Shown: piece after piece, positions 36,301 to 62,116 of the stretch
Numbering within the stretch: position 1 is the stretch's first letter
Layout of the letters: each line of letters opens with the position of its first letter
NCBI RefSeq assembly: GCF_003086295.3
Contig: NC_092050.1
Location: 145,607,699 to 145,671,698 of the forward strand
Direction: 5' to 3'
Length of the DNA stretch: 64,000 nucleotides
Source: Arachis hypogaea
Lineage: Eukaryota; Streptophyta; Magnoliopsida; Fabales; Fabaceae
The notes under the pieces: model-generated
What the model saw: the letters and a program-made list of their open reading frames with translations, nothing else
What the model was told of the DNA's origin: nothing
Databases searched by the model: none
Position numbers and translations under genes: made by a program

Positions 36301-38050
36301 TTTAATATTTTTACTTCCATAACAAAAAAATTAGCCACATATAAATGTTAAAAAAAAAAGAAAATAAAGTGGTAACAAAAAAAAAAGAATAAAATAGACA
36401 TTTTTAAATAATTTTTTTTAAATATTTTAATATAAATATGTTTTATAGAATTATCTTTTATATAATAAAAATATTTTAATCTCATCCGTTGATTTAAATT
36501 TTTAATGGATAAAATTTATAAAGAATCTTAAACCACTAAAAACCCAAATATTCTTTTCTCACCTAAAAAGCCACCATGTTTCAAATCAAGAAAAACATCG
36601 TCTATTATGCACTAGATAGTATGATAAGATGCGAATTCAATTTATCTTGTTGATGTATTCTGGGACGGTGGTGCATGGATGGCGTAGGTTTCGAAGATAA
36701 GAGGTTCTGATGCTTTTTGTCTCGATGCATACTAAATGTTAATGCACTACATTGTTACTCCACATACACAAGGTTCCGTTACGTCTTACACTTGTTCATC
36801 AATAAATATTCATCATCATATGATACATATTCTACTTAGTAGTTAGAATAAGTGTCGTGGTAATAGTAGGGCATATACATAATTTTCTATGTGACAATTT
36901 TTTATTTTTGATATTAAGTTAACAATGATAATTTTCTATGTGATAGAATAATGTTCACCAATTTTTTTAGGAATATTCGATTCAGTAGGATATCAGATGT
37001 TTATTATTTCTGGTATTGAAATAATTATTTTGGATAGTATAAGTATATTATGTCTAAGAAATTAGTAGTATTTTATTTTAGATGTTTATTTTTTAATTTA
37101 TATTGGACCAAATAAACAGCCCATTGTACATGTTGTACAGATACTTTATTGACACTTTAGATTTTTATACTTTTTATAATTTTTAAAAATATCAAAATTA
37201 TAATATTGAGATATATTATTCACCTATCATAGATGAAGAAAAAAAATTAGTCTTTGAGTGTGTATAATTAGAAAAATTATAAATAATTTTTAAAAATTTT
37301 AAGATAAAAATATCATAATTTTATATTTGATTTAAAATTTAAAAATTTATTTTCAAACAAATTTAATTTCAAAAAATTAAAATATTATCATTTTAATTTT
37401 TTGTTTTTTTAAATATATTTAATTCCTATAAAAATAAAATTTTAATAACAAACTAATACTTAAACCTCACACTTTTTTTTATATAATGCGTGTTTATATG
37501 ATACTTTTATTCCCTGATATGATTTATGTTTCGGCACTTGTCTGATTCTTTTATGTTTTGGTATGTCATCAGCATGCATCATGTATGTATGCACGCTCTC
37601 TTTAGCTATATAAGTGGAGAATATCCAAAAACAAAAATTTCTCTAACATTTTATTTTGATTTTGACTATCTACTTTATTCAAAGTTCTCTGGTTGGAAGA
37701 TTTTCTAATATTACTTACTGCTATGGTGGAAATAGGTTAGAGGAGCTTACAAATTTTTTTTTGTTAAATCAGTCTAATTTAAATCTATGATTATGTGTAA
37801 AAAGGAAAAAAAAATTATAACCTGGATTTAAATTGTATGAAACAGGCCAGGAAAATTGAGACCGTTTGATTTGGCTTTATTTGGTTTGATATAATATAAA
37901 ATTTGACTTAGAATTTTTTATAAAAGAAAAAATCTATTATTTTTATAAAAAATCAAAATCCTAATAAAATTACTAAAAGAAAGTTAAAGTCATCTTGTTC
38001 CAATAAAGATGAACACTGATTGATAAAAATAATCAAAATTATTTTGGGGT
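36301..38050. other. AT-rich intergenic DNA, nothing recognised
   Basis: No coding frame longer than about 60 codons with protein character and no terminal repeats recognised. The left limit of the viral insertion that follows is not sharply defined and could lie within the last 150 bp. Confidence 0.5.
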
Positions 38051-38056
38051 CATCTA

Positions 38057-38078
38057 CTGTAAAGATGCATCTTTACAG
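38057..38078. other. Perfect 22-bp palindrome near the viral left edge
   Basis: Eleven bases (CTGTAAAGATG) followed at once by their exact reverse complement, about 80 bp beyond the viral primer-binding site. Whether it is viral or host DNA is unclear. Confidence 0.7.
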
Positions 38079-38156
38079 ATTTTTGTCTTTATTGATTCAA
38101 AAGCGTGTTATTTAAAAATATTGCTTAAAGAAAAAGTGTTACCTTTAATCGTTAAC

Positions 38157-38172
38157 TTGGCTCTGATACCAA
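38157..38172 (-). promoter_or_regulatory. tRNA-Met primer-binding site of the pararetrovirus
   Basis: The minus strand reads TTGGTATCAGAGCCAA, containing TGGTATCAGAGCC. This is complementary to the 3' end of initiator tRNA-Met, the primer for minus-strand synthesis in caulimovirids. It lies about 750 bp downstream of the movement-protein stop, inside the region of small degenerate ORFs. Confidence 0.9.
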
Positions 38173-38301
38173 TTTTTAAAAGCCATTTTTCGAAATTTCT
38201 ATTAACTCTTTCATATAAATTTATAAAAGTATTGACTATTTCTACTATTACTAGTTTTTATAATTCTGATTTCATTTATAATTTTTCAATCTTGTTTTAG
38301 T

Positions 38302-38457
38302 TTATAATTCTTTTTTGCATGGATTATTGTATATAAAGTCTTTTATCTGTTTGTCTTTTTCTTTAATATAATTTCTCAAATCCTCAAAAACTTCTTTTAT
38401 TTCTACACTTTCTGTTGTTTCTAGATATCTTTTTAATTTTTCGACTTCGTTCTCCAT
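38302..38457 (-). CDS. Small viral ORF, 51 codons, coiled-coil-like
   Basis: An ATG at 38457 opens 51 codons ending at TAA 38304-38302, rich in Glu and Lys with a heptad-like pattern. It lies between the 78-codon ORF and the primer-binding site, the place of the small ORF Ib region in soymoviruses. Neighbouring frames between 38690 and 38460 also encode Lys/Glu-rich pieces broken by stops, so the whole stretch could be remains of one longer coiled-coil protein. Function unknown. Confidence 0.4.
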   Translation of the reverse strand: MENEVEKLKRYLETTESVEIKEVFEDLRNYIKEKDKQIKDFIYNNPCKKEL

Positions 38458-38691
38458 TTTTTCTTTTAACAATTTTAATAATATGTTTTTCAGGCATTTA
38501 TAAATTTTTTAAGTTTAATTCCAACTTGTTTATATTTATTCTTATTTCTATCCTTTTTATTATAAGGTCATTAATTTCGAACTGAAGATTATTTAATTCC
38601 CTTTTATACTCTTTTATTTTACTTTTTAATTTTTCGCCCTTTTTCTTTTTATTTTGTTTTCTGGTCTTTCAATCTTTGTATGCTTCATTAT

Positions 38692-38928
38692 TTATCTTAA
38701 AATTTCTGCAAATTCTATCATCGATTCATTACTATTTTCTAGAGACTCTATTAATTTTTCTAGCTCTTCAACTTCTCTTTTCAACTTGTCATAGATTATT
38801 TTTAGAGCTTTAAATGCTCTTTGATTTATTTCAGAAAACTGTAAATAATTTAAACGATTTTCTCTTTCAAAGAGCTCTTGTTTCTTGTCTTGATAAGTTA
38901 CATATATTTCTTCTTTATTTATTGTCAT
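38692..38928 (-). CDS. Small viral ORF, 78 aa, coiled coil
   Basis: Starts at an ATG (38928) that overlaps the movement-protein stop as ATGA, the coupling typical of caulimovirid polycistronic RNA. The product is charged (Glu/Lys) and predicted by eye to be helical, with leucines at heptad-like spacing in its second half. No conserved domain is recognised. By position it corresponds to the small ORF following the movement gene in soymoviruses. It may originally have continued beyond the TAA at 38694-38692. Confidence 0.55.
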   Translation of the reverse strand: MTINKEEIYVTYQDKKQELFERENRLNYLQFSEINQRAFKALKIIYDKLKREVEELEKLIESLENSNESMIEFAEILR

Positions 38929-39842
38929 AATTTAGTGTTTAGAGTTTCATTTAACTTTTCGACCTTTTTTGTTAATTCTTTTATTTCAGAATTTTCTTCT
39001 TTAATTTTTAACTTAGATAAACTTAAAGGGCTATTAATTTTGGATTCTCTTATTTGAAAATTCGATGAAACTAATTTTCCTGATGGTTCTTTTAATAATA
39101 GAACTGGGTTTTCAATAGCTTTATATTTTAGTATTTCTGTTTTTACAATTTTCTGAAATAATTCATCGACATAAATTCTTTCTCTGTTTTTAAATATTAT
39201 ACTATGATGGCTATTTGTTAAAGCATAATTTATAGCATATGTAATCGAAAATGGTTCATCATCTTGTTCCATTAGATTCTTTCTGTGAAATTTATAAGCC
39301 AAACTTATAGATCTACCAAGGTTTTCAGTTGATAAAGGTATAGCATATCCAAGATGGGCGTTGAATTTAACATTTACATTTGCCAGGTTTCCATGAACAA
39401 TTCCGATTATTTGATCTATTGGGTCATCAGTAATTCTTTTGTCACAGATTGCTAAGCTTATTGGTGAATTAATTCCTTTTATATATGTAGATTTGATTAA
39501 GACTTGTATAGTACTAATATGAATCCATCCAATTTTAGATCTTTTTTGTTGATCCTTAATTTTCTCAATCTGTTTACTCAATTCTTCATCATTTATCAAA
39601 GTTATCTCAAGTTTTTCATTGGCGGATTTTATCTTTATAGGGGCTTCAAGTTGAATTTTTCCATAGTATATTATATTTTTTCTATTAAAAACTTCTTTTA
39701 AGAGATTTTCTTTATTAAAATTTTCATTTGATTTGAGATTTAATTCTGTTTTTAGAACAGCCTGTTTTTCATTATCTAATAAAGCAGTTAATCTATAATA
39801 ATCAGATTCTTCTGTTAATTATAAACTTTCTAAATAATTCAT
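38925..39842 (-). pseudogene. Viral movement protein (30K superfamily), one early stop
   Basis: An ATG at 39842 opens a frame of 306 codons to TGA 38927-38925, interrupted only by TAA at codon 8 (39821-39819). Downstream 224 codons (39599-38925) are continuous. The region with GWIHISTIQVLIKS and PISLAICDKRI resembles the core of 30K-type movement proteins, which form tubules through plasmodesmata. The C-terminal part is helical and charged, as in caulimovirids. The gene follows the promoter/leader region and overlaps the next ORF by 4 nt. The length (about 305 residues) is normal for the family. I infer it is inactive because of the stop. Confidence 0.78.
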
Positions 39843-40105
39843 AAATGAAAGACTAGGATGAAGATGTACCTTTCTGGAGAAAAACTTCCTTTATTTTGTA
39901 TATTTTACATAAGGTGTTTTTATCTCCAGAGGGGAGATTGTAGATGCTAACTCCAGAGGGGAGTTTAGAATTATTTTTCCCTAAGGGAATTCTTCTTCAG
40001 ACTATAGAATCGCCTTGGCAGCTTCCTCCTTGCTCTCCTAGCATATGAGTACTCTTAGCCTCCTGCTTTCTATTGTCTGATGCTTTTACAATTGCCTAAG
40101 CAACC

Positions 40106-40113
40106 TATTTATA
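40106..40113 (-). promoter_or_regulatory. TATA box of the viral promoter
   Basis: TATAAATA on the minus strand, downstream of the as-1-like element and about 210 bp upstream of the AATAAA signal. Confidence 0.7.
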
Positions 40114-40155
40114 ATAGTTGGGTTTGATGGACAATTCCCATCCTTACCCTTCTTA

Positions 40156-40175
40156 TGACGTCATTGCTTACGTCA
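40156..40175 (-). promoter_or_regulatory. as-1-like element of the viral promoter
   Basis: On the minus strand two TGACG motifs lie 12 bp apart start to start (TGACGTAAGCAATGACGTCA), the same arrangement as the as-1 element of the CaMV 35S promoter, which binds TGA-type bZIP factors. It lies about 43 bp upstream of the TATA box, the position expected for as-1. Confidence 0.82.
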
Positions 40176-40236
40176 TTGTTTTGTTCTCTTGCACCAGCTA
40201 CATTGTTGGTGCTCTATGACCTAAGTGCTTACGTCA

Positions 40237-41466
40237 CTATGCAATAATGTTAAGAGATGCTTCAGATGCACTGTCCTCCTCTTTTATCATGTGACCCTCA
40301 GATGCATTGTCTTCTTCCTTCATCATGTGAGTTGATTCCGTTTCATTATTGCTTTCTTCAGATATCTCTGAGGCACATAGCTGGCACTTGTGGTCTTCTC
40401 TGTCTTTTATCAAATAGCAGAGATTCCTCTTTATCCCTTCAGGGAGCTTTTCTAAGAGTCCAGATAAGTTATAAAATGCTGATTCAAATTCCACCAAGAG
40501 TCTCATCTCTCTTTCTTCGATTTCATTTCTTTTACTGGACACAAGCAGAGTATTTCTACTTTTATAATTAATCCTTGTGTGAGATTCCTTCGTTATTTTT
40601 TGAGTTCTTTCAAAGACCCTTTCTAATGTGCTGGCTAGCCTTCCTTCATGACTGTAAATTGTTAAGTCTTGAATCTGATCAATTGGTTGAAAATTTTATG
40701 GGAAGACGGACATGAATATTACTTGGTGTGCTGGAACCAAGCATTCTTCTTCTTCATTAAAAATAGGTTGACTGTTTGTAAATTTTAGGGATATATCCCT
40801 TGGATTTACATTGTCAATCATATTTTTAAATCTCTTTACTGCATCAACGAATCCTGCAGGAAACTCACTAATAATTTTTAGATCATTAAAAATTAAAATT
40901 GTATCAATTAATCCATATTGAAAAAATTGATAGGTGTCAGATGGGGAAGCATCTAGAAATATAACCAGCTTTGTTAGCTGTTCTTTGGCAATAGGATAAT
41001 ATACCAAAATTGCCCTTTTTTCTTCAGTCCAATTCAGGACTATGTTAAGGGTTTCTCTGAGATTTGATCTACAGACCCTTTTCTTTTCCTTGATTTCAGC
41101 CCTTGTAGGAATGTCTCTTATTATCCCTGTTCTCTGGGTTTGAATTGGAGTTTTATCTGCTCTTTTTAGAGTTTGCTCTAGATGGAGAGCTTCATATTCC
41201 CTAAAGGATTTCTTTGTCTCTTCCAGTGTTAGAAACCCTCCTTTATGAATTATCCTTGACTGGTGTGTGAATGGTGCTGCTTTTTCCCAGGCATCATATA
41301 CTCCTTTCATGGGGCCATTATAAATTACATAATATTTTTTATCTTGGGTGGATTTTTTAATGATTTCAGCAATTGTTTTATTTTCTGAAATTTTTTCTTC
41401 ACCTGATTTGTCCACCATGCTTAGCTGGCTGAACTCTGATGGTTTTGCTTGTTGTGTTGATTTCAT
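40237..41466 (-). pseudogene. Viral transactivator/viroplasmin (ORF VI), one in-frame stop
   Basis: An ATG at 41466 opens 256 continuous codons to TAA at 40698-40696. The same frame then stays open to TAG at 40239-40237, so the gene had about 409 codons with a single stop. Residues 43-92 hold the viroplasmin/RNase H1 N-terminal-like fold (YYVIYNGPMKGVYDAW), diagnostic of caulimovirid inclusion-body proteins. These proteins form viral factories and reactivate translation of downstream ORFs. The C-terminal part after the stop has a CQLC motif and an acidic repeat (MMKEEDNASEG/MIKEEDSASEA). It lies 98 nt after the polymerase stop. Confidence 0.85.
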
Positions 41467-41564
41467 TGCTTCAATGGCCTTCTTGAGAGATTGGATCTGT
41501 GTCCTTATTTGCTGACAATGCTTGCATTTTTCGAGTTCTTGCTCGTATTTTTGAATTTCTTAAT

Positions 41565-43556
41565 CTAATGCGTTGTAGACGAACTCCATTCTCTTGTTAA
41601 TGTATCTGCAATAACATTTTTGTCACCCTTAATATATTCAATTTTTATTGGATATTGTAACAAAAATAATTGCCATCTTACCAATCGTCCATGATTATAA
41701 TCAACTTTTAAATTATATCGTACGAAACCTGTTAGGTAACTTGAATCTGTCCTTAATGTAAATTCTCTGGGTAGTAAATCAATTTTCCATTTCTTAAGAG
41801 ATTTAATTGCTGCTAGAGTTTCCTTTTCATGAGTGGTATATCTCTGTTCTGTTGGAGTAAAAGTTCCTGAAATATACCTGCAAAGTAATTTCTTTGGGGA
41901 ATCTTTAGAATCTAGTGATTCTTTTTCTTGTTCCAAACTTTTTATAGCTTTCTTAACTTTTAGACATCCTGACCAGGTTATGTCTAAAGCATCTGTTTCT
42001 ACTATTAAGTAGTCATTTTCTTCTGGAATATAAAGTTCTGAAAGTTTTTCACATAATTCTTTAATCCTTTGAATTTGCATACTATCTTTTTCATCCCATT
42101 TCCATTCTTTTTTAGTACTTATTTTTGGAAATAGGCTTTTAGTGTATTCTGTTATATTCTTTAAAAATCCTTGATCAGAAATATAATTTATACACCCTAA
42201 AAATCTTTGTAATTGTTTTCTATCTTCTATTTTATTAGGAAATAAATTTACCTTTTCTAGGACATTTGGCTGAAGTTTTAGCTTTCCTTGAGTGGATAGA
42301 ATTAATCCAAGAAACTCTATTTCTTGTTTTGCTATTCTTGCTTTCTTTTTGCTAAGAACTAATCCTTTTTCTTTACATCTTTCTAAAACTATTAATAATT
42401 TTTGAAGATGATCTTATCTATCCTGTTTTGTAAAAATTAGTATATCATCAATGTACACTAAAACAAATTCATTTAACTCTTTTAAATTTTCTTCCATAAA
42501 TCTTTGATAAATACCTGGGGCTTGTTTTAATCCGAATGGTAATACATTCAATTCATAGAGCAACACACTTGTTGATTCTTTTGTTGGGCAAGTAAAAGCA
42601 GTTAATTTCTTTGTTTCTTCGTCTAAACGAAGTTGCCAATATCCTGATTTTGCATCAAGAGATGAAAACCAAGTTGCTCCTTTGATTTTTTCTAAAATAG
42701 AATCTTTTCTTGGAAGTTTATGAGCATCACCAATAGTTGCTTCATTCATCTTCTTATAGTTAATAACCATTCTTCGTTTTCCCCTTTTAATTTCATTATT
42801 GTTTTCGACATAAAAGGCTGGAGCCGCATGAGAACTTTTACTTAATCTTATAATTCCTTTTTCCAAAAGATCTCTACATTCTAATGAGAACTCTTCTCTA
42901 TCTCTTGCGGAATAAGGAATTTTATTTGGAACATTTATCTCTTTTGTAGGATCTTTTAATTTAATACTTACTAATTCGTTATTTGTATTTTTAATATCTA
43001 AAGGATTTTCAGCACAAATTTCATCCAAAAGTTCTTCTATCTTTATTTCAAGATTATTTTTTGGGATATTTATTTGAAAGTATAAATTTAAATAACATGT
43101 CTCTAATATAGAAAATATTTTAAATTTTAAGATCTTATCTATAGTAGTAGTTGGTATTTTTATACGTTTTGATTTTTGATTTATTGACGAATCGTGTGGA
43201 GCTTTTAAAACTATATATGTTAATTCTTGAATGAATGGATGATATAGCTTTAAAAAGTTATTTCCTATGATAAAATTCATTCCAGAATCTAACATATATA
43301 TAGATGGAACAATGAACCTATAATTTTGAATAAAAATTTCAACCATCTCTGCTTTTTGGTCAATTTTATGTATTGATTTGTCAGCTATTCTAACTCTTAA
43401 TGGTTTCTTTAATTTTTTCCAATCAAGTTTTATATTTGAACTAGCAAAACATTGTGTTGCTCCAGAATCTATGAAAGCATTTATAAACTTTTTTGTTATT
43501 TTTATAGTAATAAATGTGGCATTATTATTCAGTCTCTGAGTCTGTTTCCGAGACAT
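41565..43556 (-). pseudogene. Viral polymerase (protease-RT-RNase H, ORF V), one in-frame stop
   Basis: The frame of 664 codons from ATG 43556 to TAG 41567-41565 is interrupted once, by TAA at 42416-42414 just after the RT active site. Residues 30-32 (DSG in FIDSGATQ) are the aspartic protease site. RT blocks follow, with YIDDIL at 368-373. After the stop come the RT thumb, then RNase H with ETDAL, a conserved HEKE-type Glu region, and TDSSYL. There is no integrase, as expected for caulimovirids and unlike Ty3/gypsy. The gene starts 1 nt after the coat-protein stop. The length is typical of the genus. Confidence 0.88.
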
Positions 43557-43557
43557 A

Positions 43558-44874
43558 TTAAAAAATATAGTCTAAGTTATCATCAGATTCCTCTAATGGT
43601 TCCATGAAACAAGACTTAGCAATTTCTATTTGTTTGGTAAGATCCTTTTTATCCTTCTTTTTTGGACATTCATTTGCATAGTGTCCTTCTTCTTGGCAAT
43701 ACCAACACTTACAATTTTATTTTTTATTTGGGCAATAGTTATTTTTTTGTCTTTTATTTTTATTGTTATTTTCCTTTCTAAAATACCTCTTTTTTCTCCA
43801 GTTTGGATAATATTTTCTTTTTCTAAATTGATATTTTCTTTTTCTTTGAAAATTTTTATTAAGACCATATTTTTGGGGTATCTCTTCATTATCCTGACAA
43901 CAAATTCTAATTATATTCGCAAATCTTTTTTGAGTTGCTTCTTGCATACAACGTTCTTTTATTTCCTCTCTTATTGCAGAGGTTGCTCCACCAAAATTAT
44001 TTTCAATTGTCCCTCTGTTTATTTCTCTTATAAATCTTCCCATTATAAATTCATTAGCAGGATATGGAAGTTTTGTTATATACATACTAAGATAATGATT
44101 TTTATCTTCTTCTTTTAATTTGTAATAATGTATTCTATATTCACATATATAAGATTCCACATTACATAGATCATATATCTGAATATTAGCTAAATGGTTT
44201 TTTGCTTCTTGATATTCTTTATTATAGACTTCTTGTCTATGATCTATAATATTTTTTCCAAAAAATTCTTTATATAGAATCATCATTATATATAATATCT
44301 TATCATAAGCTGTTGTTTTTGTTGCTAAATCTTCTATTATTTAGTTTTCTATTGATGTCATATAATCTCTTATAATTCTTTTAGTATGAAACCCTATGTA
44401 ATTCCAAATATCTCTTCCAGACAATTCACTAAGCTTTGGATTAGTAAAAGCTTCTAATAAAAAAGAATTCAACCAATTTTCGAAAAAAAAATTTTCATTC
44501 TTTTTACAGTCTAAATCGAGCATTCTATCTCCTTCCATTTCCTGGATTTTAGGAACGTATTTTGATGATATTTTTGTATATTTTGAATCTTTATTTATAA
44601 ACCCTTTTTTAAAAGCATAATTATCAAAACATGTTTCCCATTTAAATTGAGATTGATTATCCTTAGATGTTCCAGCTTCATTTTTTACTTGTATTGGAAT
44701 TGCTGGTTTTTCGTCACTTGAATAATCTAGGATGTGTTCTTCATTTTCTATATTTTCAGGGTTTACTAATTCTTCTTCTATTTGAAATCCTTGTTCCATA
44801 ATATTATTTTCTTGAGCCATCTTTAATTGTTTAAAAAGCATTGTAACTTCTTCTAATTTTTCTTCAATATTCAT
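43558..44874 (-). pseudogene. Viral coat protein (ORF IV), one stop and one frameshift
   Basis: Starts at ATG 44874, overlapping the previous stop as ATGA. The acidic N-terminal region is followed by the capsid core. A TAA at 44343-44341 interrupts it, then the same frame continues to about 43717 through a very basic Arg/Lys-rich tract. A frameshift there puts the CCHC zinc knuckle (C-X2-C-X4-H-X4-C, 43707-43666) in another frame, which ends in an acidic tail and TAA at 43560-43558. The acidic-core-basic-CCHC-acidic layout is that of caulimovirid coat proteins, which package viral DNA. Confidence 0.82.
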
Positions 44875-45290
44875 AATTTTAGTGGTGGTTTTACTTTTAA
44901 ATCTGTTATGTTGATTATATTGTGAAATTTTTCTTCTTTGGGATTCTCTTTTTCCTTATTTCTTTGAAATTTTATAGATACTAATATTTCTTCAAGCATG
45001 TCTACTATAGAATTTAATTGTGGGTTAAAAGTATGATGAAGATGTGGTGAATCATTTCCATAGTAACATTTTTTAGAAATTCCATGTGAAAAATAAGTTT
45101 TTTCAGGTTTTTGAAGTCCTTCAATAAAACTTATAGTAAAATAAAGATTTTGAGAAAAATTATTTTGTATTGATTTTAAGAATTCGGTGTCATTACAGTT
45201 AACATTAGTTAAAATCATTAATTTTTTATCTATTAATTTTGATAACTTAATTATTTCTTCTCTTAAATCTTCTAATTTACTTTTTTCCAT
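44871..45290 (-). CDS. Viral ORF upstream of coat protein (139 aa), intact
   Basis: Intact frame of 139 codons from ATG 45290 to TAA 44873-44871. The N-terminal region (LEDLREEIIKLSKLIDKKL) is predicted helical; a basic, proline-containing C-terminus (KVKPPLKL) follows. Size, helical start, basic end and place immediately before the coat gene suggest the ORF III/virion-associated protein of caulimovirids, but no motif proves it. Sequence just upstream is not recognisably viral, so the insertion ends here. Confidence 0.55.
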   Translation of the reverse strand: MEKSKLEDLREEIIKLSKLIDKKLMILTNVNCNDTEFLKSIQNNFSQNLYFTISFIEGLQKPEKTYFSHGISKKCYYGNDSPHLHHTFNPQLNSIVDMLEEILVSIKFQRNKEKENPKEEKFHNIINITDLKVKPPLKL

Positions 45291-45439
45291 TAGGTGACGC
45301 TTTTATGAAGAGTTACGGTTTTAAGTGAAAAGTGTGGTTTTAGAATGTGTGATTTAGATTTTGCCACCTAAACACATCTTTAAATTTTGCTCTTTACCTT
45401 ATATTTTACCAATTATTTTCTGTTGATTTCATTAAAATT

Positions 45440-47791: not shown

Positions 47792-48090
47792 TGATAAAAT
47801 TGTGAAAGAATAAGAAAAGAAAAGAATGCGAAATTTTATTGATTATTGATTGATTGAATTGTACTGAAGTGTATTGTAAACTATGAGGGTAAAACTAAAT
47901 ATATATAGAGCATTGTCCTATGAAAGATAAAAGCAAATAAAGATAAGATAAGAACAATTAAAGATAAGATAAAGATAAGATAATAAAGACTAAAATTAAA
48001 ATTGAATTTTTGTATTCTGTTGGGCTGAATTTGTGGGCCACGATACTTCTTTATTGTTGTCATGGGCTAAAGTAGAAGAGTAGTTTAATA
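47792..48090 (-). repeat. TRIM LTR, 3' copy (299 bp)
   Basis: About 98% identical to the other copy apart from two indels (a 10-bp and a 5-bp difference near 47825-47860). On the minus strand the LTR starts TATTAAAC and ends TTTTATCA, i.e. TA...CA and not the usual TG...CA. Confidence 0.9.
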
Positions 48091-48197
48091 CGCCCCCGCA
48101 AGCTGGTGGATGGAAGATGTCAATAATCCACAGCTTGGATAAGTTCCGATGAAATTGTTGAGAAAAGCGCGTCTGACGTGGTGACGCGGAGGAAGAT

Positions 48198-48525
48198 GCG
48201 TGCGGCAGAGCTTGAGCTGCCTACTGCAAAAATATAAAAGGAGATGCTGTGCTTGAGCAGCGATCTTCAAAAACTGCGTGCGGCGGAGCTTGAGCTGCCG
48301 GCGGCAAAAATATAAAAGGAGATGCTGTGCTTGAGCAACGATCTTTAAATAATTGCGTGCGGCGGAGCTTGAGCTGCCGACGACAAAAATACATAAAAGG
48401 AGATGCTGTGCTTGAGCAGCGATCTTTAAACAATTGCGTGCGGCGGAGCTTGAGCTGCCGACGGCAAAAATACATAAAAGGAGATGCTGTGCTTGAGGGA
48501 GAGAGAGCAAGCAGCGATCTTCATA
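48198..48525. repeat. Tandem repeat, four units of 78-81 bp
   Basis: Units begin GCGTGCGGCGGAGCTTGAGC at 48198, 48276, 48355 and 48436. Each contains AAAAGGAGATGCTGTGCTTG and GCGATCTT. They are alternately similar, with the third and fourth most alike. The last is broken by an extra GGGAGAGAGAGCAAG. Confidence 0.92.
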
Positions 48526-48711
48526 AAAAAAAAGAATGAAAAAATAAAAAATAAAAAATAAAAAAATAAAAAATAAAAAATAAAAAATAAAAAATAAAAA
48601 AATAAAAAATAAAAAAATAAGCGTGTAAAACGCAACAAGATTGATCTTTAGAGGGCGCGTATGGCGCAATAAGAGTGGTCTTCAAATGGCGCGTAGAGCG
48701 CAATCAGAGTG

Positions 48712-48782
48712 CAGATGGAACTGCTAGAACAGATGCAGATTGAACTGCTAGAACAGATGCAGATTGAACTGCTGAAACAGAA
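48712..48782. repeat. 27-bp tandem repeat, about 2.6 copies
   Basis: Unit GATGCAGATTGAACTGCTAG-AACA type, repeated in the TRIM interior; an A-rich run at 48530-48620 precedes it. Confidence 0.85.
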
Positions 48783-49009
48783 TACCGACAAAACTCCTGG
48801 AAGAAGAAGTTGCAGATGAAATGCTAGAAGAAGGCGCAGACGGAATTTCTGGTAAAGAACCGGGATAATTAAAATTATGGTAGAATTTTCACTTGGATGC
48901 ATGTAATTAAATCTATGATTATTTATTGTGGGAGGAAGTTGAAAAAGAAGCATGGTGATTTCTCACCGAAAAGATGATAACTTATATATCCTCTTCAAGG
49001 AGGATATCA

Positions 49010-49023
49010 TGGCTCTGATACCA
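49010..49023 (-). promoter_or_regulatory. tRNA-Met primer-binding site of the TRIM
   Basis: Minus strand TGGTATCAGAGCCA directly adjoining the LTR end, complementary to initiator tRNA-Met. Confidence 0.9.
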
Positions 49024-49317
49024 TGATAAAATTGTGAAAGAATAAGAAAAGAAAAGAAAAGAATGTGAAATTTTATTGATTGTTAATTGATTGAAGTGTG
49101 TTGTAAACTATGAGGGTAAAACTAAATATATATAGAGCATTGTCCTATGAAAGATAAAAGCAAATAAAGATAAGATAAGAACAATTAAAGATAAGATAAA
49201 GATAAGATAATAAAGACTAAAATTAAAATTGAATTTTTGTATTCTGTTGGGCTGAATTTGTGGGCCACGATACTTCTTTATTGTTGTCATGGGATAAAGT
49301 AGAAGAGTAGTTTAATA
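49024..49317 (-). repeat. TRIM LTR, 5' copy (294 bp)
   Basis: The partner of 47792-48090. It lies next to the primer site, so it is the 5' LTR of the element on the minus strand. Confidence 0.9.
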
Positions 49318-49322
49318 ATTTC

Positions 49323-50050
49323 AATAAATATTCTTTCTTTAACTTTTTTTATTTTTTTCTCAATTATTTTGACCGAATAAATCTTTATTATTAATTAAAA
49401 AATTTAAGTCAAAATTAGTTGCTTGTATCATTAACCATTTTCCCTTTTTTGGATGAGAGGAACTTATCAATGAATCACGAAATGCTAAAGTTCTTAAATT
49501 TTTTTTCTTAATTTATTAAAACTATAATTTTTTTTAGAAGTAATTCGTGGGATGATGCACTTTTTTCTATTTATATTACAAACATTAATTGATCGTGTAT
49601 TAGCAGACAATATATATATAGGTTCGCGATGTATTGCCATTCGAAATCAAGATATTGGGATTGGATCTAGCCGTAAGAAGAATAGAATGCTTGACTGATA
49701 AATAACTCACTTCTTGATCTTCGATCCCTTTAGTCACTAGAACATCCCCGATCAGTGCAATGGGATGTGTTTATTTATCTATCTCTTGATTCGAAATGGC
49801 TCATTCAAGACTTACTCGAACTATTAGTCAACAGAAAATCAAAGTGTTGATTTCGGCTAATAGGGATAGAGATAGGAAAAAAAAAGGTTGAACAATCAAA
49901 CCTATTTCTCGAATCAATAGAAGTCCAAAGAGGTGAATAGGGTCCAAAATAATGATAGATATGTAAAAATAAAGTAGGTCCAATTACGCCTATTCCTAAT
50001 CTTAAATGGAATAGAACGACGCAGGAATCTATTATATGTAAACATAGTAT
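49323..50050 (+). pseudogene. rpl20: Plastid-derived DNA with an rpl20 fragment (NUPT)
   Basis: Codons at 49799-49888 read [20 protein letters not shown] followed by [10 protein letters not shown]. This is the conserved middle of chloroplast ribosomal protein L20. The sequence upstream (49620-49795) and downstream (49890-50030) does not continue rpl20, so the piece is flanked by other DNA, probably further plastid fragments joined by rearrangement. It is a nuclear, non-functional copy. I could not name the neighbouring pieces. A plastome alignment would settle the composition. Confidence 0.6.
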
Positions 50051-53690: not shown

Positions 53691-55522
53691 ATGGCTTCCG
53701 TAGATGTTCTTTCTCAGTGGGTTGATGTCACGGTCCTAGGGGAGGAGCCTTCAGTCGATACCGAGTTTATCACCCACCTTCGTACTCACCATAGAATTTG
53801 TACTTCTGAAGAGGATGAGCCGAAGTATGAGTTGGTAGTCCCGGGTCCAGAAGACGGGTTTGCTTCGGGAGGGCCGACGAGGCGGCCCCTCATTTCTTTT
53901 TTATGTATGAGAGTATGGTCACCCGTTTGGGCATTTTTCTTCCATTTTCAGAGTTTGAAATGTCTGTATTACGTCATTGCCGGGTTGCTCCCACCCAGCT
54001 TCACCCCAACTCTTGGGATTTTTTGAAAATTTACCAATTTATCAGCCAGGCCTTAGAGTTCCCGACTTCTCTGAGGATTTTCTTTTATCTCTTCCATATG
54101 ACCAAGCCCTTCAGTGGGCTAAATAATAAGCAACAGTAGGTGTCCTTCCGAGCCATACAAGGTCGGAGGCTTTTTACCCTTTTTGACGAATCCTTTCATG
54201 ATTTTAAAAGCTATTTTTTCAAAGTTCAAGCAGTAGAGGGTCACCACCCCTTTTTCTTAGATGAGAGTTCTTCTCCTCGCTTTCCTCTATACTGGTTAGA
54301 GGCCTCCCCCTGTGAGAAATATGGTCTGGACGACCTGGACGAAGTGGAGGCGGCCATCGTAGGGTTCCTCCGAGAAGTGTGGGGGAGGGCCCCATACTTG
54401 GATACTAAAAATTTCTCCAGGGGTCGCCGGCCTTTGTCCAGTCACAACTAGGTAGCTTTTTGCGTTTCTCACTTATTTCCGACTTGCAATTTCTCTTACC
54501 GACTTGTCTGACTTTTAGCTACCAATTTTGTTTTTGCAGAGATGGCAAAGAAAAACGCTCAAGAGTCTTACCAGAGGGTTCAGGAAGCCAAGGCAAAGTC
54601 TCGTGCCAGATCTGGTGGTGCTAGGGCGGTTGTCTCTCCTCCTCCTCCTCCTCGGAACGTTGGGACTCCCTCCCAACCTATTGTAATTTCTTCCTCTGCT
54701 TCCTCTCTGCCACCCCCTTCTGTCCGACCTACTCCTGAACCAGAGCCGAAGAAGCGCAAGACCTTAGAGTCTGGCGCTTCTGGTGAGGCGGACGCTCTTG
54801 CGTTCGTCCGAAAGAACATTTATCCTCATGCTCGTATGAGTATGGATGATGTTTCTGTTCGGCACTACCTCACCACTGTGGTTGAGGAGAGTCTCAAGAC
54901 GGCGGGGGTTTGTGGCAAACTCTTAGATATATTTGAGAAGACTCCTATCAGCTCTTTAGGGACGACCTCGAGGGTCGAGGAGCTGGAAGGCAGGCTTCGC
55001 ATATATCAGGAGCATGAGAGGGAGTTGGAGGGGGAAGTTGCCAAGCTGAAGGAGGAGAGGGACAGCCTCCGGAAGAAGGAGAAGAAGTTGCAAGCCCAAT
55101 GCAACATGGAGGTGGATTTGAGGAAAGCAGCGCAAGCCAGCTACAACAGTTTATTTGCTGATCTTGTGTCTGTAAAGAATGACTTGCTGAATGCTCGGAA
55201 GGCCTATACCGAGTTGGAGGACTCTATTGCGGATGGTGCTGATGAGGCTTGGAGGGTTTTTAAGGAGCAGGTCGGAGTTATTGCTCCTGACTTGGACCTT
55301 TCTCCTTTGGACCCTGATAAGATTGTTATTGATGGTGCCATCGTGGATCTTCCTGTCCCCGTGGTGGAGTCTGAGTCTGATTTGAAGACTCGGGGGCAGA
55401 GGATCATAGAGTCCCCTCCTCGCTCTAAGGACGCTCCGAGTTCTTCTGCCGCCCCTCCGACTTTCTCTCCAACTCCTAGTCCTGGTGGTGGTGATCCTTC
55501 TACTCCTCTTGCTAGGAAGTGA
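53691..55522 (+). pseudogene. Antisense ORF (aORF) of the Tat element, coiled-coil protein
   Basis: A gene-like unit opposite to gag-pol. After a possible 5'-UTR intron (53527-53661) an ATG at 53691 opens a frame with acidic sequence. By similarity of style to plant 'putative plant transposon protein' domains the sense continues in another frame at about 53860 (a 1-nt shift), is cut by TAG at 54137-54139 and shifts again near 54435. An intron (GTAGCT...TTTGCAG, 54452-54539) leads to a 326-codon exon from ATG 54542, Pro/Ser-rich then a long coiled coil (RVEELEGRLRIYQEHERELE), ending TGA 55522. Function unknown. Not part of gag-pol. Confidence 0.7.
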
Positions 55523-56328
55523 TTTTGGCTATTGGGGCCCGGCCTGTGGGCCCCTCTTTTTAAACTCTTTTATATTTATTTGTTGATGTTTGCAACAATT
55601 TTTTGCCCTTTCAGGGCCGTAAACAAAACAAATTTTCGATACCCTTTTTAATAAGGGTTTAATTTAGCGTTTAAATAAATGCCCTTTTTTTTGGATAAGG
55701 GTTTTGAGTTACCTTATGCGCGCATGCTTTTCTATTCGTGGTTCTTTTAGCTCTTTGATCTTTTCTGGAAAAAACCTTTCCTTTGGGGCTTGCCTGCTTT
55801 TTTGAATCTCTTTGATCCTCAAGGCAGCCTTACAACTTTTTCTTAGTTTTTCCTATCTCTTTTTGTTATTCCTAGTACTCAATTTTGTTTTATTGAGTTT
55901 TTCGTGACTTAGGCTACTTTTGCGATTCATTTTAATTTTACTCGGTTTCGTATTCCGACTTATGAGTCGGACTGCTCCCGAGTTTATCATGATCGACTTC
56001 TATAGCCTCTTTACGCCGACTTGTACCTCGTCGTTTTATCCTGACGACCATCTAGGTCGGTTCATGGGATTTTCACGTTTTGTCGAGCTTAAATCGGCGC
56101 GTTTCGTAGAAAGAGAATAAAAAGGGAATTTAAAAGAGATATTTAAAATGAAAGAGATCTTTATTAATTGAGGAGGTACCTTATTGCTACTAAGGGCTTT
56201 TGATAATTTATTTTCCCTTAGCCCCTACTATGATGCCTCGTTAAAAACCCTTTTCAGAAAAAACCCTTTGATTTTGGGAAAAAATCATGAAATTGGGAAA
56301 AGAGTACATCAGGGAGTAGGGTTCGTTT
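55523..56328. other. Non-coding spacer between antisense gene and pol end
   Basis: The two convergent genes end at 55522 (plus) and 56329 (minus). The spacer holds T-rich DNA with AATAAA-like signals (AATAAATG near 55675) and GACTTATGAGTCGGAC-type short repeats near 55950. Confidence 0.6.
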
Positions 56329-59300
56329 TTAGCTGTAGTACCTTTTCATATTACAAGCATGCCATGATCTTGGTAACTCGTTGCCGTCGAAGTCGGTTAC
56401 CCTATAATAGCCCTTTCCTAAGACCTCGTTGATCTTGTATGGTCCTTTCCAATTAGCAGCGAGCTTTCTTTCCCCTGATTTGTTGACTCCAATATCGTTT
56501 CTGATTAGGACCAAGTCATCTGGGGTGAAACTCCTTCGAATGACTTTTTTGTTGTATCTCGCGGTCATCCTTTGCTTCAATGCTGCTTCTCTTATCTGGG
56601 CTTCTTCTCGGATTTCGGGGAGCAAGTCGAGCTCCTCTTTGTGCCCCTGTATATTCCCGATCTCGTTGTGGAAAATCACTCTTGGGCTTTGCTCATTGAC
56701 CTCTATTGGGATCATGGCTTCTACGCCATAAACTAGTCGGAAGGGTGTTTCTCTAGTGACGGATTGGGGGGTTGTTCTATAAGCCCATAGTACTTGTTGG
56801 AGCTCTTCAGCCCAAGCTCCTTTCGCATCTTGTAATCTTTTCTTCAGCCCTACCAGTATGACTTTGTTGGCTGCTTCGGCTTGCCCATTGGCTTGTGGGT
56901 GTTCCACTGAGGTGAACTGGTGTTTGATGTTCATACTGGCTACTAGGCTTCTAAAGGTGGAGTCGGTGAACTGGGTTCCGTTATCTGTGGTAATGGAATA
57001 AGGTATCCCATACCTTGTGATTATATTTTTGTAGAGGAACTTCCGACTTCTTTGTGCAGTGATGGTGGCCAGTGGTTCTGCTTCTATCCACTTTGTGAAA
57101 TAATCTATTCCCACTATTAGGTATTTGACTTGTCCTGGTGCCTGGGGAAAAGGTCCTAACAAATCCATTCCCCATTTTGCAAAGGGCCATGGGGAGGTGA
57201 TACTGATGAGCTCCTCTGGGGGGGCCACGTGGAAATTTGCATGCATTTGACACGGTTGGCATTTTTTCACAAAGTCTGTGGCATCTTTCTGCAAGGTTGG
57301 ACAGTAGAATCCAGCTCGGATCACCTTTCTGGCTAATGACCTTGCTCCGAGATGGTTCCCGCAGATTCCACTATGTACCTCCTCTAATACCTCGGTGGCT
57401 CTTGAGATCGGTACACACTTTAACAATGGTGTTGATATCCCCCTTCTATAGAGAATATTTTTCACCAAGGTATAGTGTTGTGCTTCCCTTCGGATTTTCT
57501 TGGCCTCCTTTTCCTCCTTGGGGAGGATGTCGAATTTCAGGTATTCGACCAAGGGGTTCATCCATCCGAGGTTTAATCCGACCACTTCAAAGACTTCTTG
57601 TTTGTCTTCCATTTTTACCACTGAAGGTTCCTGGAGAGTTTCTTGGATCAGGCTTCTGTTATTTCCTCCTGGCTTGGCACTTGCTAACTTGGATAGGGCG
57701 TCTGCTCTGCTATTTAGGTCCCGAGTTATGTGCGTGACCTCGGTTCCTGCAAAACGCCCAAGGTGCTCCAGAGTTTTTTCCAAGTATCTCTTCATATTTG
57801 GGTCTTTTGCCTGATATTCTCCACTTATTTGGGAGGTCACCACTTGAGAGTCACTGTATACCATTACCTTCGTAGCACCGACTTCTTCTGCCAGCTTCAA
57901 TCCTGCAATCAAGGCTTCATATTCTGCCTGATTATTTGAAGCTGGGAATTCAAACTTGAGGGAGACCTCTATCTGGGTTCCCCTTTCATCTACCAATATT
58001 ATGCCTGCGCCGCTTCCTGTTTTATTGGAGGATCAATCTACATAGAGTTCCCATGTAGTTGGTTTATCCTCTTGATCCCCTGCATATTCTGCAATGAAGT
58101 CGGCGAGGCACTGGGCTTTAATCGCCGTCCAAGTTTCGTACTTCAAGTCGAACTCGGAGAGCTCTATTGCCCATTGAACCATTCTTCCTGCAACATCCGT
58201 CTTTTGGAGGATTTGCTTCATGGGTTGGTTCGTGCGGACTCTTATTGTGTGAGCTTGAAAGTAAGGCCGTAGCCTTCGAGAGGCTATCACTAAGGAGTAG
58301 GCAAACTTCTATAATTTGTGATACCTTAGCTCAGGGCCCTGTAGAACTTTACTGATGAAATAGATTGGGTGTTGACCGTCCTCGTCTTCTCTTATCAAGG
58401 CTGCTGAGACAGCCTTGTCTGCCACGGATAGGTATAGGACGAGGTCTTTTCCGGCTACAGGTCGGGTCAAAATAGGAGGTTGGCTCAAAAACTTTTTGAA
58501 CTCCTGGAATGCCTCCTCGCATTCGGGAGTCCATTCAAATTGGTGTCCCTTTCTCAATAGGGAGAACAGTGGAAGGGATCTTAGTGCTGATCCTGCCAAA
58601 AATCTGGAGAGAGCTGCTAGTCGGCCATTCAGCTGTTGGACCTCTCTCAAACAAGTCGGGCTTTTCATTTCTAGGATAGCTCTACACTTGTCGGGATTGG
58701 CTTCGATCCCTCTTTGTGTTAGCATGAATCCTAGAAATTTTCCTGCCTCCACCGCGAAGGCGCACTTTGCAGGATTTAGTCTCATCCCGTGCAACCTTAT
58801 GGTGTCAAAGACTTGTGAAAGGTCAGACAAGAGGTCGACTTCTTTCTTGGTCTTTACCAGCATATCGTCGACGTACACTTCCATTAAGCTCCCTAAGTAA
58901 GGGGCAAACACCTTATTCATCAGCCTCTCATATGTGGCCCCTGCATTTTTCAATCCAAATGGCATGACCACGTAGCAAAAGTTAGCTCTGGGCGTGATGA
59001 ATGATGTTTTTTCCTGGTCTGGTTCATACATCGGGATTTGGTTATACCCTGAGTAGGCGTCCATGAACGACAAGTATTGATACCCCGAGCTAGAGTCTAC
59101 TAGGGTGTCAATGCTTGGTAGTGGATAAGGGTCCTTGGGACATGCCTTATTTAAGTCGGTATAGTTGACGCACATTCTCCATTTACCATTTTGTTTTTTG
59201 ACTAGCACCACATTGGCTAGCCATGTCGGATATTCGACTTCTCTGATGAAACCGGCTTCTAGGAGCGCTTGTACTTGCTCCTCTACTATTAGAGCTCGCT

Positions 59301-61548
59301 CTGGGCCGAGCTTGCGTCTTCGTTGTTGTACAGGTCGAGATCCCGAGTAGACCGAGAGCTTGTGGGACATGAGTTCTGGATCTATCCCAGGCATGTCGGA
59401 GGCCTTCCAGGCGAAGAGATCAGAATTATCTCTTAGGAGTTTAATCAATTCTTGTCTTAGGGTTTCCCCCAGGTTGGTTCCTATGTGAGTGTTTTTTCCT
59501 TCCTCTTCTCCGACCTGAATCTCCTCGGTTTTTCCTCCGGGTCGTGGTCGCAGCTCTTCTTTGATCCTTGCTCCACCGAGCTCTATTGTGTGAACTTCTT
59601 TGCCTTTTCCCCTCAGGTTTAGGCTTTCATTGTAGCATTTCCTTGCTAGCTTCTGATCTCCCCTCATCGTTGCTATCCCCGCTGAGGTCGGGAATTTCAT
59701 GCAGAGGTGGGGTGTCGATACCACCGCTCCGAGTCGATTAAGGGTAGCTCTGCCGATTAAAGCATTATAGGCCGACCCCACGTTGATGACTATGAAGTCT
59801 ATACTCAGAGTCTTTGATTTCTCCCCCTTTCCAAAGGTGGTGTGGAGGGGCAAAAATCCTAGTGGCTTTATTGGCGTGTCGCCTAATCCATACAAGGTGT
59901 CGGGGTAGGCTCTTAACTCTTTCTCATCTAAACCTAGTTTGTCGAAAGCGGGCTTAAAGAGGATGTCCGCTGAGCTTCCTTGGTCTACTAGTGTTCTGTG
60001 TAGATGGGCATTTGCCAGGATCATGGTAATTACCACTGGGTCGTCGTGCCCAGGGATTATTCCTCGCCCATCTTCCTTTGTGAATGAAATGGTTGGAAGG
60101 TCGGAGGACCCCTCTCCGACCTGGTAAACTCTCTTGAGATGTCTTTTACGAGAAGATTTTGTGAGTCCCCCTCCCGCAAACCCTCCTGAGATCATATGGA
60201 TATGTCTCTCCGGAGTTTGTGGTGGTGGGTCTCTTCTATCCATATCATCTCGCTTTCTTTTTCCATGACTGTCCGACCTTTCTATGAGATATCTGTCAAG
60301 CCGACCTTCTCTGGCCAGTTTTTCTATCACATTTTTAAGGTCGTAACAGTCGTTTGTGGAGTGCCCATATATCTTATGGTACTCACAGTAATCACCGCGG
60401 CTCCCCCCTCTTTTATTTTTAATGGGCCTGGGAGGAGGCAGCCTTTCGGTATTGCAAATTTCTCTGTATACATCCACTACAGGAACTTTCAGCGGAGTAT
60501 AAGAGTGATATTTTCTTGGCCTATCGAGGCCGAGTTCTTCCTTCTTCTTAGCTTCCCTCTCCCTCTCTTTCGTTGAGGGAGGGTGACCGGGTCGCAAACT
60601 CGGGTCTCTTAGCCTAGCATTTTCTTCCATATTGATGTACTTTTCAGCTCTTTCCTGTACATCACTTAAAGAGGCGGGGTGTCTTTTTGATATGGACTGT
60701 GAGAAGGGACCTTCTCTAAGACCATTGACTAGCCCCATGATGACTGCTTCGGTGGGCAGGTCTTGAATCTCCAAACATGCTTTGTTGAACCTTTCCATAT
60801 AGGCCCGTAAGGACTCCCCGACCTCCTGTTTTATTCCCAGGAGACTTGGTGCATGTTTTACTTTGTCTTTCTGGATGGAGAACCTCATCAAGAACTTTCT
60901 TGAGAGGTCTTAAAAACTGGTAATTGACCTCGGAGGGAGGCTGTCGAACCACTTCATCGCCGCTTTTGACAAGGTTGTCGGAAAAGCTTTGCATCGCGTA
61001 GCGTCAGAGGCGTCAACCAGATACATCCGACTTTTAAAGTTGCTCAGATGATGCTTTGGATCAGTGGTTCCGTCATAGAGGTCCATATCGGGGCTTCTAA
61101 AGTTTCTCGGAACTTTTGCCCTCATTATGTCCTCGCTAAAAGGATCGTTCTCCCCTAAGGGCGAATCTTCTCTACCGTCGTGGGAGTTCTGACCTTTGAG
61201 GGAGGATTCTAACTTTAAGAGTTTTCTTTCTAACTCTTTTCGTCGCTCCATCTCCTCTTTTAGGTTCTTTTCGGTTTCCTTTTGTCGTTCCCGTTCCTGT
61301 TCTAGCTGCTCGAGGCGACTGTGGACTAATCCCATGAGCTCAATTGCGTGGGATGGTCCTTCTTTTTCTAATTCGCGCCCCTCCGAGGAATTTACCTTCG
61401 GGTTTTTGATTCCGGAGGTGCCTTCCCTGTGTTGATCATTGGCTTCCTGGTGAAGGGTCTGGTCTGCCTCATTGTTTCCAGTGTTCAGATTCTCTTGTTC
61501 AGAATCTGTCTCCACATGACCCTCTTCAGGGGATCTATCCGCCATCAC
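56329..61548 (-). pseudogene. Gag-pol of the Tat element, three in-frame stops
   Basis: One frame of 1,740 codons from ATG 61548 to 56329 is cut by TAA (60912-60910), TAG (58311-58309) and TGA (58035-58033), with no frameshift. Residues 1-212 are gag with a coiled coil. A CX2HX4HX4C-type knuckle lies at 388-401 and the protease site (LVDQGSSADI) near 520-530. RT has YVDD at 892-895. Then come a gypsy RNase H, an archaeal-type RNase H starting at YVD just before the TGA, and integrase with an HHCC finger (H-X-H...CQPC) and DDE residues (GMDLLGPF, TTDNGTQF, ANGQAEAANK). The stops separate gag, RT and the second RNase H/integrase, so the copy is non-autonomous. Confidence 0.93.
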
Positions 61549-61564
61549 TGGTTGATCTCTCGGG

Positions 61565-61582
61565 TCCCCAGCAACGACGCCA
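61565..61582 (-). promoter_or_regulatory. Primer-binding site of the Tat element (tRNA-Asp-like)
   Basis: The minus strand reads TGGCGTCGTTGCTGGGGA one base inside the 5' LTR. It matches the complement of the tRNA-Asp 3' end with about two mismatches, as in many Tat/Athila elements. Confidence 0.75.
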
Positions 61583-61583
61583 A

Positions 61584-62116
61584 TGTTACGGTGGGTAACC
61601 GGAGATTAATGGGCTGGATGGCGTTGGTTGGCCCAAACGTATGAAGGAGGTGGCTTTCGAGTGGATCTGTTACTCGGTGTTCCTCCGTCCGACTTGTACG
61701 TGTGAAAGAATGGGGGGTGGTACCTGCAAAGACACTCCGATGCCTAAGTTAGCAAGAGTGTGAGCAAGTTAGAGAGTATTGGAACTTAGTGATACCTGAA
61801 TGGTGTCAGTGTATTTATAGTGGTGAACCAATAACCACCGCTGAAGTAGTGCCACCTTTTTAGGTGGATAACCGTTCCCATATCTTAGGGAGGTTAAGAT
61901 ATGGCTCTATGAAGTGGTTAGAGAGTTTCTAGGGGCAGTTACTCATTCGAATGAGTGTTATCTGCCAGCTAACCCTCGTATCCGACTTCTTTGGAGCAGG
62001 TCGTGTTCAGTACCGACTTCTGGGAATGAAGGCTGGTACTGGGTGAGGGCCAACCCTTTGGGTTGGGCCTTTTTGCTTGGATCCTGGACCTTTATTATTG
62101 GGCCAGGGTATGAACA
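61584..62116 (-). repeat. 5' LTR of the Tat element (right in window)
   Basis: 533 bp. Differs from the other LTR at two adjacent-region sites near 61764-61766 and at sites near 61982 and 62025. Confidence 0.95.

Follow-up and report, generated by a model that had tools for sequence, protein, structure and literature searches.

Soymovirus copies in the peanut genome with fixed inverted-repeat ends and 9-bp target site duplications

Viral genomes residing in chromosomes as DNA transposons are known from Teratorn of medaka, named as the first case in which a DNA virus was found fused with a cut-and-paste transposon (PMC10175614; this and the other papers cited here are drawn on for the passages that bear on our comparisons). 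For caulimovirids, integration is called speculative in a 2023 review, which gives break repair or the machinery of long terminal repeat (LTR) retrotransposons as the main ideas and mentions the hijack of a transposon-derived integrase as a suggestion (PMC10377300); the mechanism of their integration and propagation has been described as unknown (PMC10175614), and one CAULIFINDER run gave no transposon-caulimovirid chimeras (PMC9719215). In Arachis, pararetrovirus pieces have been annotated by the thousands in A. duranensis and A. ipaensis (PMC6189423), and de Tomas and Vicient (2022) reported Soymovirus-01, with 391 reverse transcriptases (RTs), as confined to that genus (three species in their table; PMC9794742). 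Here we describe a near-complete endogenous soymovirus in a stretch of 64,000 nucleotides of the Arachis hypogaea genome (the window, C15:145607699-145671698), together with the family of copies to which it belongs, in a genome scan of 2.557 Gb (440 contigs).

An earlier sequence-only reading of the window had proposed a near-complete endogenous soymovirus-like pararetrovirus, and the comparison with known viruses confirms this. With Cestrum yellow leaf curling virus (CmYLCV) the protease-RT piece shares 61% identity, and with BRRV 51%; CmYLCV is the nearest named virus both by this piece and by the movement protein (MP, 47%). In the RT tree the window piece is sister to CmYLCV (SH-aLRT = 98), inside a clade with BRRV (SH-aLRT = 100, 29 rows); this was a quick tree of 49 rows, in which the outgroup rows were not on one side and whose named rows did not include SbCMV, PCSV or most of the other genera. 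The RT phylogeny that had been suggested as a check thus places the element firmly with the soymoviruses, and placement in another genus was not seen among rows that did not include Petuvirus or Florendovirus. A protein from a contig of 1864 bases is 97% identical to the RT piece over 75%. Read as a circle, the order MP, small open reading frames (ORFs), primer site, coat protein (CP), Pol, TAV and promoter is that of Soymovirus when compared with water chestnut soymovirus 1 (WCSV-1), the places of Pol and TAV in soymovirus genomes being partly general knowledge. The soymovirus-like gene order and the primer site downstream of the MP gene, both claimed beforehand, agree with WCSV-1, in which the primer site is likewise downstream of MP (PMC6482551). 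CmYLCV and WCSV-1 are free viruses, whereas the present element is chromosomal.

Soymovirus-01, also consisting of endogenous soymovirus RTs found only in Arachis and not compared in sequence with the present copies, is very likely the same family; that work, however, classified RT domains, and the terms "target site", "flanking" and "full-length" are absent from its main text as far as covered here (PMC9794742). The expectation that endogenous copies would be little described is therefore only partly right, as the RTs were already known. What is new are the fixed termini of the copies, their inverted repeats and the 9-bp target duplications; these features, like the copy number, were out of reach of the sequence-only reading. 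In a literature search, among the titles and abstract openings listed, with most subscription journals and all bioRxiv preprints outside its coverage, no caulimovirid elements with transposon-type ends were described. Two further systems are close in one respect each. AhMITE1 of peanut shares with the present element AT-rich 9-bp target site duplications (TSDs), terminal inverted repeats and the host, and is known to be excised, but it is ~205 bp long and has no genes (PMC3336055, PMC9277781), and its published 25-bp repeat does not convincingly match the present ends. Teratorn, likewise a viral genome residing in chromosomes as a DNA transposon, is the closest concept, but it belongs to another virus family, being a herpesvirus element of 180 kb made by fusion with a transposon of the piggyBac superfamily (PMC10175614). 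The present element, by contrast, is 7.4 kb long, reverse-transcribing and devoid of any transposase that could be found.

Fixed ends, target site duplications and empty sites

The element occupies 38046-45410 of the window on the minus strand (7,365 bp), with its edges set by a 9-bp duplication on either side; the limits first proposed (38157-45290) were too narrow. Linearisation at the primer site was ruled out, since the element extends ~110 bp beyond it, to an end common to other copies. A repeat search of the window revealed no direct repeat connecting the two ends.

Searching the genome with the MP gave 1605 first-look candidates, 132 of which were scored; the 131 besides that of the window are 96-98% identical. 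There are 190 exact 5′ ends of one type (A) and 413 3′ ends with at most two mismatches (reversed-pattern controls: 0 in both cases), and these end counts, together with the MP candidates, imply a family of several hundred members at least. The ends are of at least four types, A, B, C and W, the last being that of the window copy. All 30 A-type 5′ ends fetched (of the 190) and 10/10 B-type 5′ ends lead into the first viral ORF, two of the latter ten being homeologous duplicates. Of 100 5′ ends listed, 38 can be paired with a listed 3′ end on the same strand no more than 20 kb away, and none with one on the opposite strand; the paired ends are uniformly spaced (32/38 at 7.1-7.6 kb, median 7.36 kb). 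Viral copies stand at identical coordinates on C5 and C15 (387753), and with identical spacing at the chromosome ends of C4 and C14, a sign of homeologous exchange in tetraploid peanut. At C11:8837338-8837514, a 3′ end lies ~135 bp ahead of the 5′ end of another copy on the same strand, and at C2:10509311-10510379 two 5′ ends point apart with ~1 kb between them.

We read TSDs in two sets of copies. The first consisted of the window copy and 27 copies from the top MP hits (28 in all), with two top hits skipped, one on the small contig C149 and one a homeologous duplicate on C14. Both ends matched an end motif in 17/28 copies, and in 16 of these 17 the outer 9-mers are exactly shared, compared with 1/272 among mismatched end pairings; among lengths 5 to 12, only 9 stood out. 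The second set consisted of 13 copies whose ends fit the patterns exactly and lie 7.1-7.6 kb apart (13/38 pairs, those on C1-C8 except copy c26), and exact 9-bp TSDs were present in 11 of them (controls: 0/156). Exact 9-bp duplications are thus found in 27/30 copies with both ends recognised, and the 9-mers on the TSD side are 87% AT. One copy with the duplication (c21) and one without it (c13) both sit in an AT repeat; the B-type copies L127, L132, c13 and c21 are located in (TA)n repeats, so that TSDs are hard to read at some B-type copies.

The 5′ end and the reverse-complemented 3′ end align at equal distance from the tips in 8/8 copies. As good an alignment was reached by none of 1000 shuffles in five of the eight copies, and by 4, 8 and 18 shuffles in the window copy, c10 and c17, respectively. 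These inverted repeats are short and degenerate. The B-type 5′ end fits only the B-type 3′ end (32 vs. 12-17), and A- and C-type ends fit each other.

Both insertions that were tested (the window copy and c26) have empty sites. The insertion in the window is missing at the homeologous C5:99376549-99376828, where the joined flanks with one 9-mer match over 280/280 bases at 95%; this alignment passes through the joint, with two one-base gaps per sequence, one pair of them at most 10 bases from the joint. For c26, the flanks once joined align with four paralogous sites at 87-90%, the alignment crossing the joint, and every one of these sites is listed on both C4 and C14 (three joints were viewed). 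Copy c26 (C4:127744572-127751718) interrupts what looks like coding sequence in a cluster of tandem genes, with uninterrupted paralogues adjoining; judged by eye, these genes appear PR-1/CAP-like. Misassembly of an exogenous virus, which had been named as an outcome that would overturn the sequence-only reading, was rejected in view of the empty homeologous site and the many copies with different flanks.

Selection on the viral genes and age of the copies

The viral genes of the copies are under purifying selection. The ratio of nonsynonymous to synonymous substitution (dN/dS) is 0.17 in ORF1 (28/30 A-type copies kept) and 0.17 in the coat piece (29/30 copies kept), both in copies picked by the 5′ end only, and 0.11 in protease-RT (17/20 MP-picked copies; c02, c16 and c19 were dropped because the gene was not in place). 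Alignment columns varying in at least two copies are distributed over codon positions 1/2/3 as 17/5/25 in ORF1, 13/9/39 in the coat piece, 10/13/58 in protease-RT and 11/0/48 in MP. Columns varying in a single copy are more even (ORF1: 17/14/21; coat: 37/29/34; protease-RT: 26/25/39; MP: 13/5/29), as expected with free decay of copies after insertion. Since dN/dS is 0.11-0.17 in three genes that were not used for copy choice, the viral genes are not passive cargo.

Across 30 copies, the substitutions private to a copy amount on average to 0.6% per base (0-25 per copy in 1060 bp). With the peanut substitution rate of ~8e-9 per site per year, the insertions are estimated to be under about one million years old, with some copies much younger.

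A candidate route of insertion and its alternatives

We propose that a reverse-transcribing soymovirus lineage owes its chromosomal copies to a Mutator-type transposase that acted in trans, and assign this reading a probability of about 0.62. The lineage would multiply as a reverse-transcribing virus or virus-like replicon with its own proteins, and in its circular genome the inverted-repeat ends would adjoin, with the primer site on one side and the first ORF on the other. A putative transposase, supplied in trans, would recognise these ends and, in a DNA transposition of Mutator type, insert the genome at AT-rich cuts staggered by 9 bp. Mutator-type transposition is recognised by a constant 9-bp duplication in combination with inverted repeats, and it is by its 9-bp TSD that AhMITE1 is labelled Mutator-type; the present family has both features (TSDs in 27/30 copies and terminal inverted repeats in 8/8). 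Because the promoter is downstream of CP, Pol and TAV, a single chromosomal copy should give no full genomic RNA, and selection on these three genes would therefore act in the circular genome. From selection in the circle and the adjoining ends we infer circular viral DNA as the substrate and a transposase, presumably of Mutator type, with its source elsewhere in the genome. The fixed ends and the 9-bp duplication offer a concrete, testable entry route for one integrase-less caulimovirid lineage in a major crop, and use of a DNA transposon reaction would place the family beside Teratorn as its counterpart in plants, here with a virus that reverse-transcribes.

Several observations weigh against insertion by a transposase in trans. 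No transposase domain was found by Pfam scan in ten pieces of the element, which, lacking a domain of Mutator-like element (MULE) transposases, could at most be a non-autonomous Mutator-like element. None of the 40 A- and B-type 5′ ends belongs to a virus-free element, so that no parent transposon is known, and scans of viral contigs with the MP and with the RT alignment found no free virus of the lineage. None of the four end types was convincingly matched by the 25-bp repeat of AhMITE1 (at best, 42/1000 shuffles did as well, in eight comparisons). One or more ends were unrecognised within the fetched stretch in 11/28 copies of the first set (one end in ten copies, both in c20), and 3/30 copies (c13, L100 and L104) have no exact TSD. 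The inverted repeat of the window copy is weak, its 5′ end scoring 28 with its own 3′ end and 21 with the A-type. The B-type ends are unlike all other types (5′ scores of 14-15, which is shuffle level, and 3′ scores of 19-25), and yet the MPs of c13, with B ends, and c17, with C ends, differ at 6/891 bases; the ends must therefore have been exchanged somehow, and exchange of both ends among close viruses fits a circle in which they are neighbours. As to selection, the dN/dS of 0.03 in MP (27/27 copies) is biased, since MP protein score was the basis on which those copies were chosen, and protease-RT was measured in copies of the same MP-picked set; the mean difference between copies is lower in the intergenic region (0.056) than at synonymous sites of MP (0.117).

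A bolder form of insertion by a Mutator-type transposase is rather unlikely, and we raise it tentatively: the life of the virus might have two phases, in which the enzyme both inserts and excises the unit, end-joining of the excised unit restores the circular genome that the virus requires, and the copy in the chromosome serves as a genuine provirus. If true, this would be a provirus stage in a family thought to be without one.

We consider it rather unlikely that the inverted repeats are a viral hairpin with an RNA function, at the tip of which some other enzyme cuts the circle and inserts it with a 9-bp stagger, the likeness to a transposon being superficial. In its favour, the circle would make neighbours of the two ends, and the pairing preferences are such as RNA stems would show: the best partner of the B-type 5′ end is the B-type 3′ end and that of W, by a small margin, is W, with A and C interchanging. 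The constant 9-bp duplication, however, would still need a transposase-like enzyme, and none was found encoded in the element.

Unlikely, too, is a Pack-MULE cargo, in which a Mutator-like element once captured the viral genome and has since moved it about by cut-and-paste as an inert passenger, with its viral genes lying idle. Inverted repeats, 9-bp TSDs and a uniform unit length would suffice for such an element. Against it, in four genes the substitutions that several copies share fall preferentially at third codon positions (weakest in ORF1, 25/47), dN/dS stands at 0.11-0.17 in genes not used for copy choice where neutral cargo would give ~1, and an almost identical MP occurs with two dissimilar types of end.

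Capture of viral nucleic acid by an LTR-retrotransposon integrase or by long interspersed nuclear element (LINE) machinery is very improbable. LINE insertions have variable TSDs and a poly-A end, and the TSD here is a constant 9 bp. Such machinery has been proposed for other caulimovirids (PMC10377300), and retrotransposons are close by in the window, but most LTR elements have TSDs of 4-6 bp (PMC12440569) and their machinery would leave LTR sequence; we set this route aside on TSD length and fixed ends. Ordinary endogenisation by many independent captures of viral DNA in double-strand break repair, one of two widely held hypotheses for caulimovirids (PMC10377300) and in keeping with the AT-rich insertion sites, is scarcely tenable and was ruled out, as it would yield neither two constant ends nor an exact 9-bp duplication.

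Gene content of the window copy and neighbouring elements

The five viral genes, promoter region and primer site that had been claimed in one collinear block are all present, on the minus strand, where the order from 45410 to 38046 is inverted-repeat end, first ORF, CP, Pol, TAV-like gene, promoter, MP, two small ORFs, primer site and inverted-repeat end (Table 1). Matches to Pfam are clear for A3 peptidase (3.1e-36), RVT_1 (2.9e-27), RNase H-like (1.9e-18) and MP (1.1e-38), and below the cut-off for the caulimovirus coat domain (4.5e-5, 24.2 bits vs. 27) and Cauli_VI (TAV, ORF VI; 9.6e-4, 19.8 bits vs. 21). The same reading had expected one stop per big ORF plus one shift in the coat gene; Pol and the TAV-like gene do have one stop each, but the coat gene has two in-frame stops and no frameshift was seen in it. 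A zinc knuckle (CX2CX4HX4C) follows the second coat-gene stop in the same frame. The MP of the window copy has no internal stop, but its 297 aa compare with 306-326 in the other 131 scored copies.

Table 1. Features of the window copy and its insertion site (window coordinates).
Feature	Coordinates	Strand	Remarks
Whole inserted element	38046..45410	-	7365 bp; end kind common to other copies, and target duplications
9-bp TSD, high-coordinate copy	45411..45419		same 9-mer as 38037-38045
5′ terminal inverted repeat region	45351..45410	-	begins GGTAAAATATAAGG; end motif and in-register alignment
First ORF from 5′ end	44871..45290	-	ATG at 45290; 143-aa frame, stop to stop
Coat protein gene	43572..44955	-	in-frame stops 44341-44343 and 43717-43719; frame still open at 43572
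Pol	41565..43571	-	protease-RT piece 43571-42414; RNase H piece 42413-41565; the two separated by one stop (42414-42416)
TAV/inclusion-body-like gene (ORF VI)	40237..41559	-	one in-frame stop 40696-40698; Cauli_VI just below cut-off
Intergenic promoter/leader	39819..40236	-	TGACGTAAGC 40236-40227 and 40175-40166; TGACGTCA 40163-40156; TATAAATA 40113-40106; AATAAA 39895-39890
Movement protein gene	38925..39818	-	297-aa open frame; PF01107 1.1e-38; 47% to CmYLCV MP over 77%
Small ORF, overlaps MP end	38692..38931	-	79 aa, stop to stop; no family over cut-off
Small ORF between MP and primer site	38302..38508	-	68 aa, stop to stop; no family over cut-off
tRNA-Met primer binding site TGGTATCAGAGCCAAGTT	38154..38171	-	exact 12-mer TGGTATCAGAGC; 15/16 bases of the 16-bp site given in PMC13308828
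3′ terminal inverted repeat region	38046..38105	-	finishes ...GTAGATGACCCC; in register with 5′ end, score 28; 4/1000 shuffles equal
9-bp TSD, low-coordinate copy	38037..38045		AATTATTTT on +; identical to 45411-45419; empty homeologous C5 site crosses joint

The promoter region has a TATA box at 40113-40106 and TGACG-type boxes within 40236-40156. The exact TGGTATCAGAGC of the primer site lies at 38171-38160. Sites with at most two mismatches to it number 3 in the window (chance mean 2.54), and since this count is no higher than chance, support for the primer site comes from its position. Scans of the window for Rfam families and tRNAs had no hits.

Two other elements lie nearby in the window. 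That at 47792-49370 is a small LTR-type element with 226-nt direct repeats (99%) ~1.23 kb apart, the other exact TGGTATCAGAGC site (tRNA-Met, 49023-49012) beside one repeat, and an internal tandem repeat of 78-81 bp; it looks like a young terminal-repeat retrotransposon in miniature (TRIM) on the minus strand. At 54512-61605 there is a Ty3-type LTR retrotransposon on the minus strand, with gag-like, RT and integrase frames, whose three best matches are from Arachis (77-85%). In the MP protein search, 105 of the best 120 of 296 matches are from Linum perenne, ~40% identical and several per locus, which suggests that this species may hold another heavily amplified endogenous caulimovirid.

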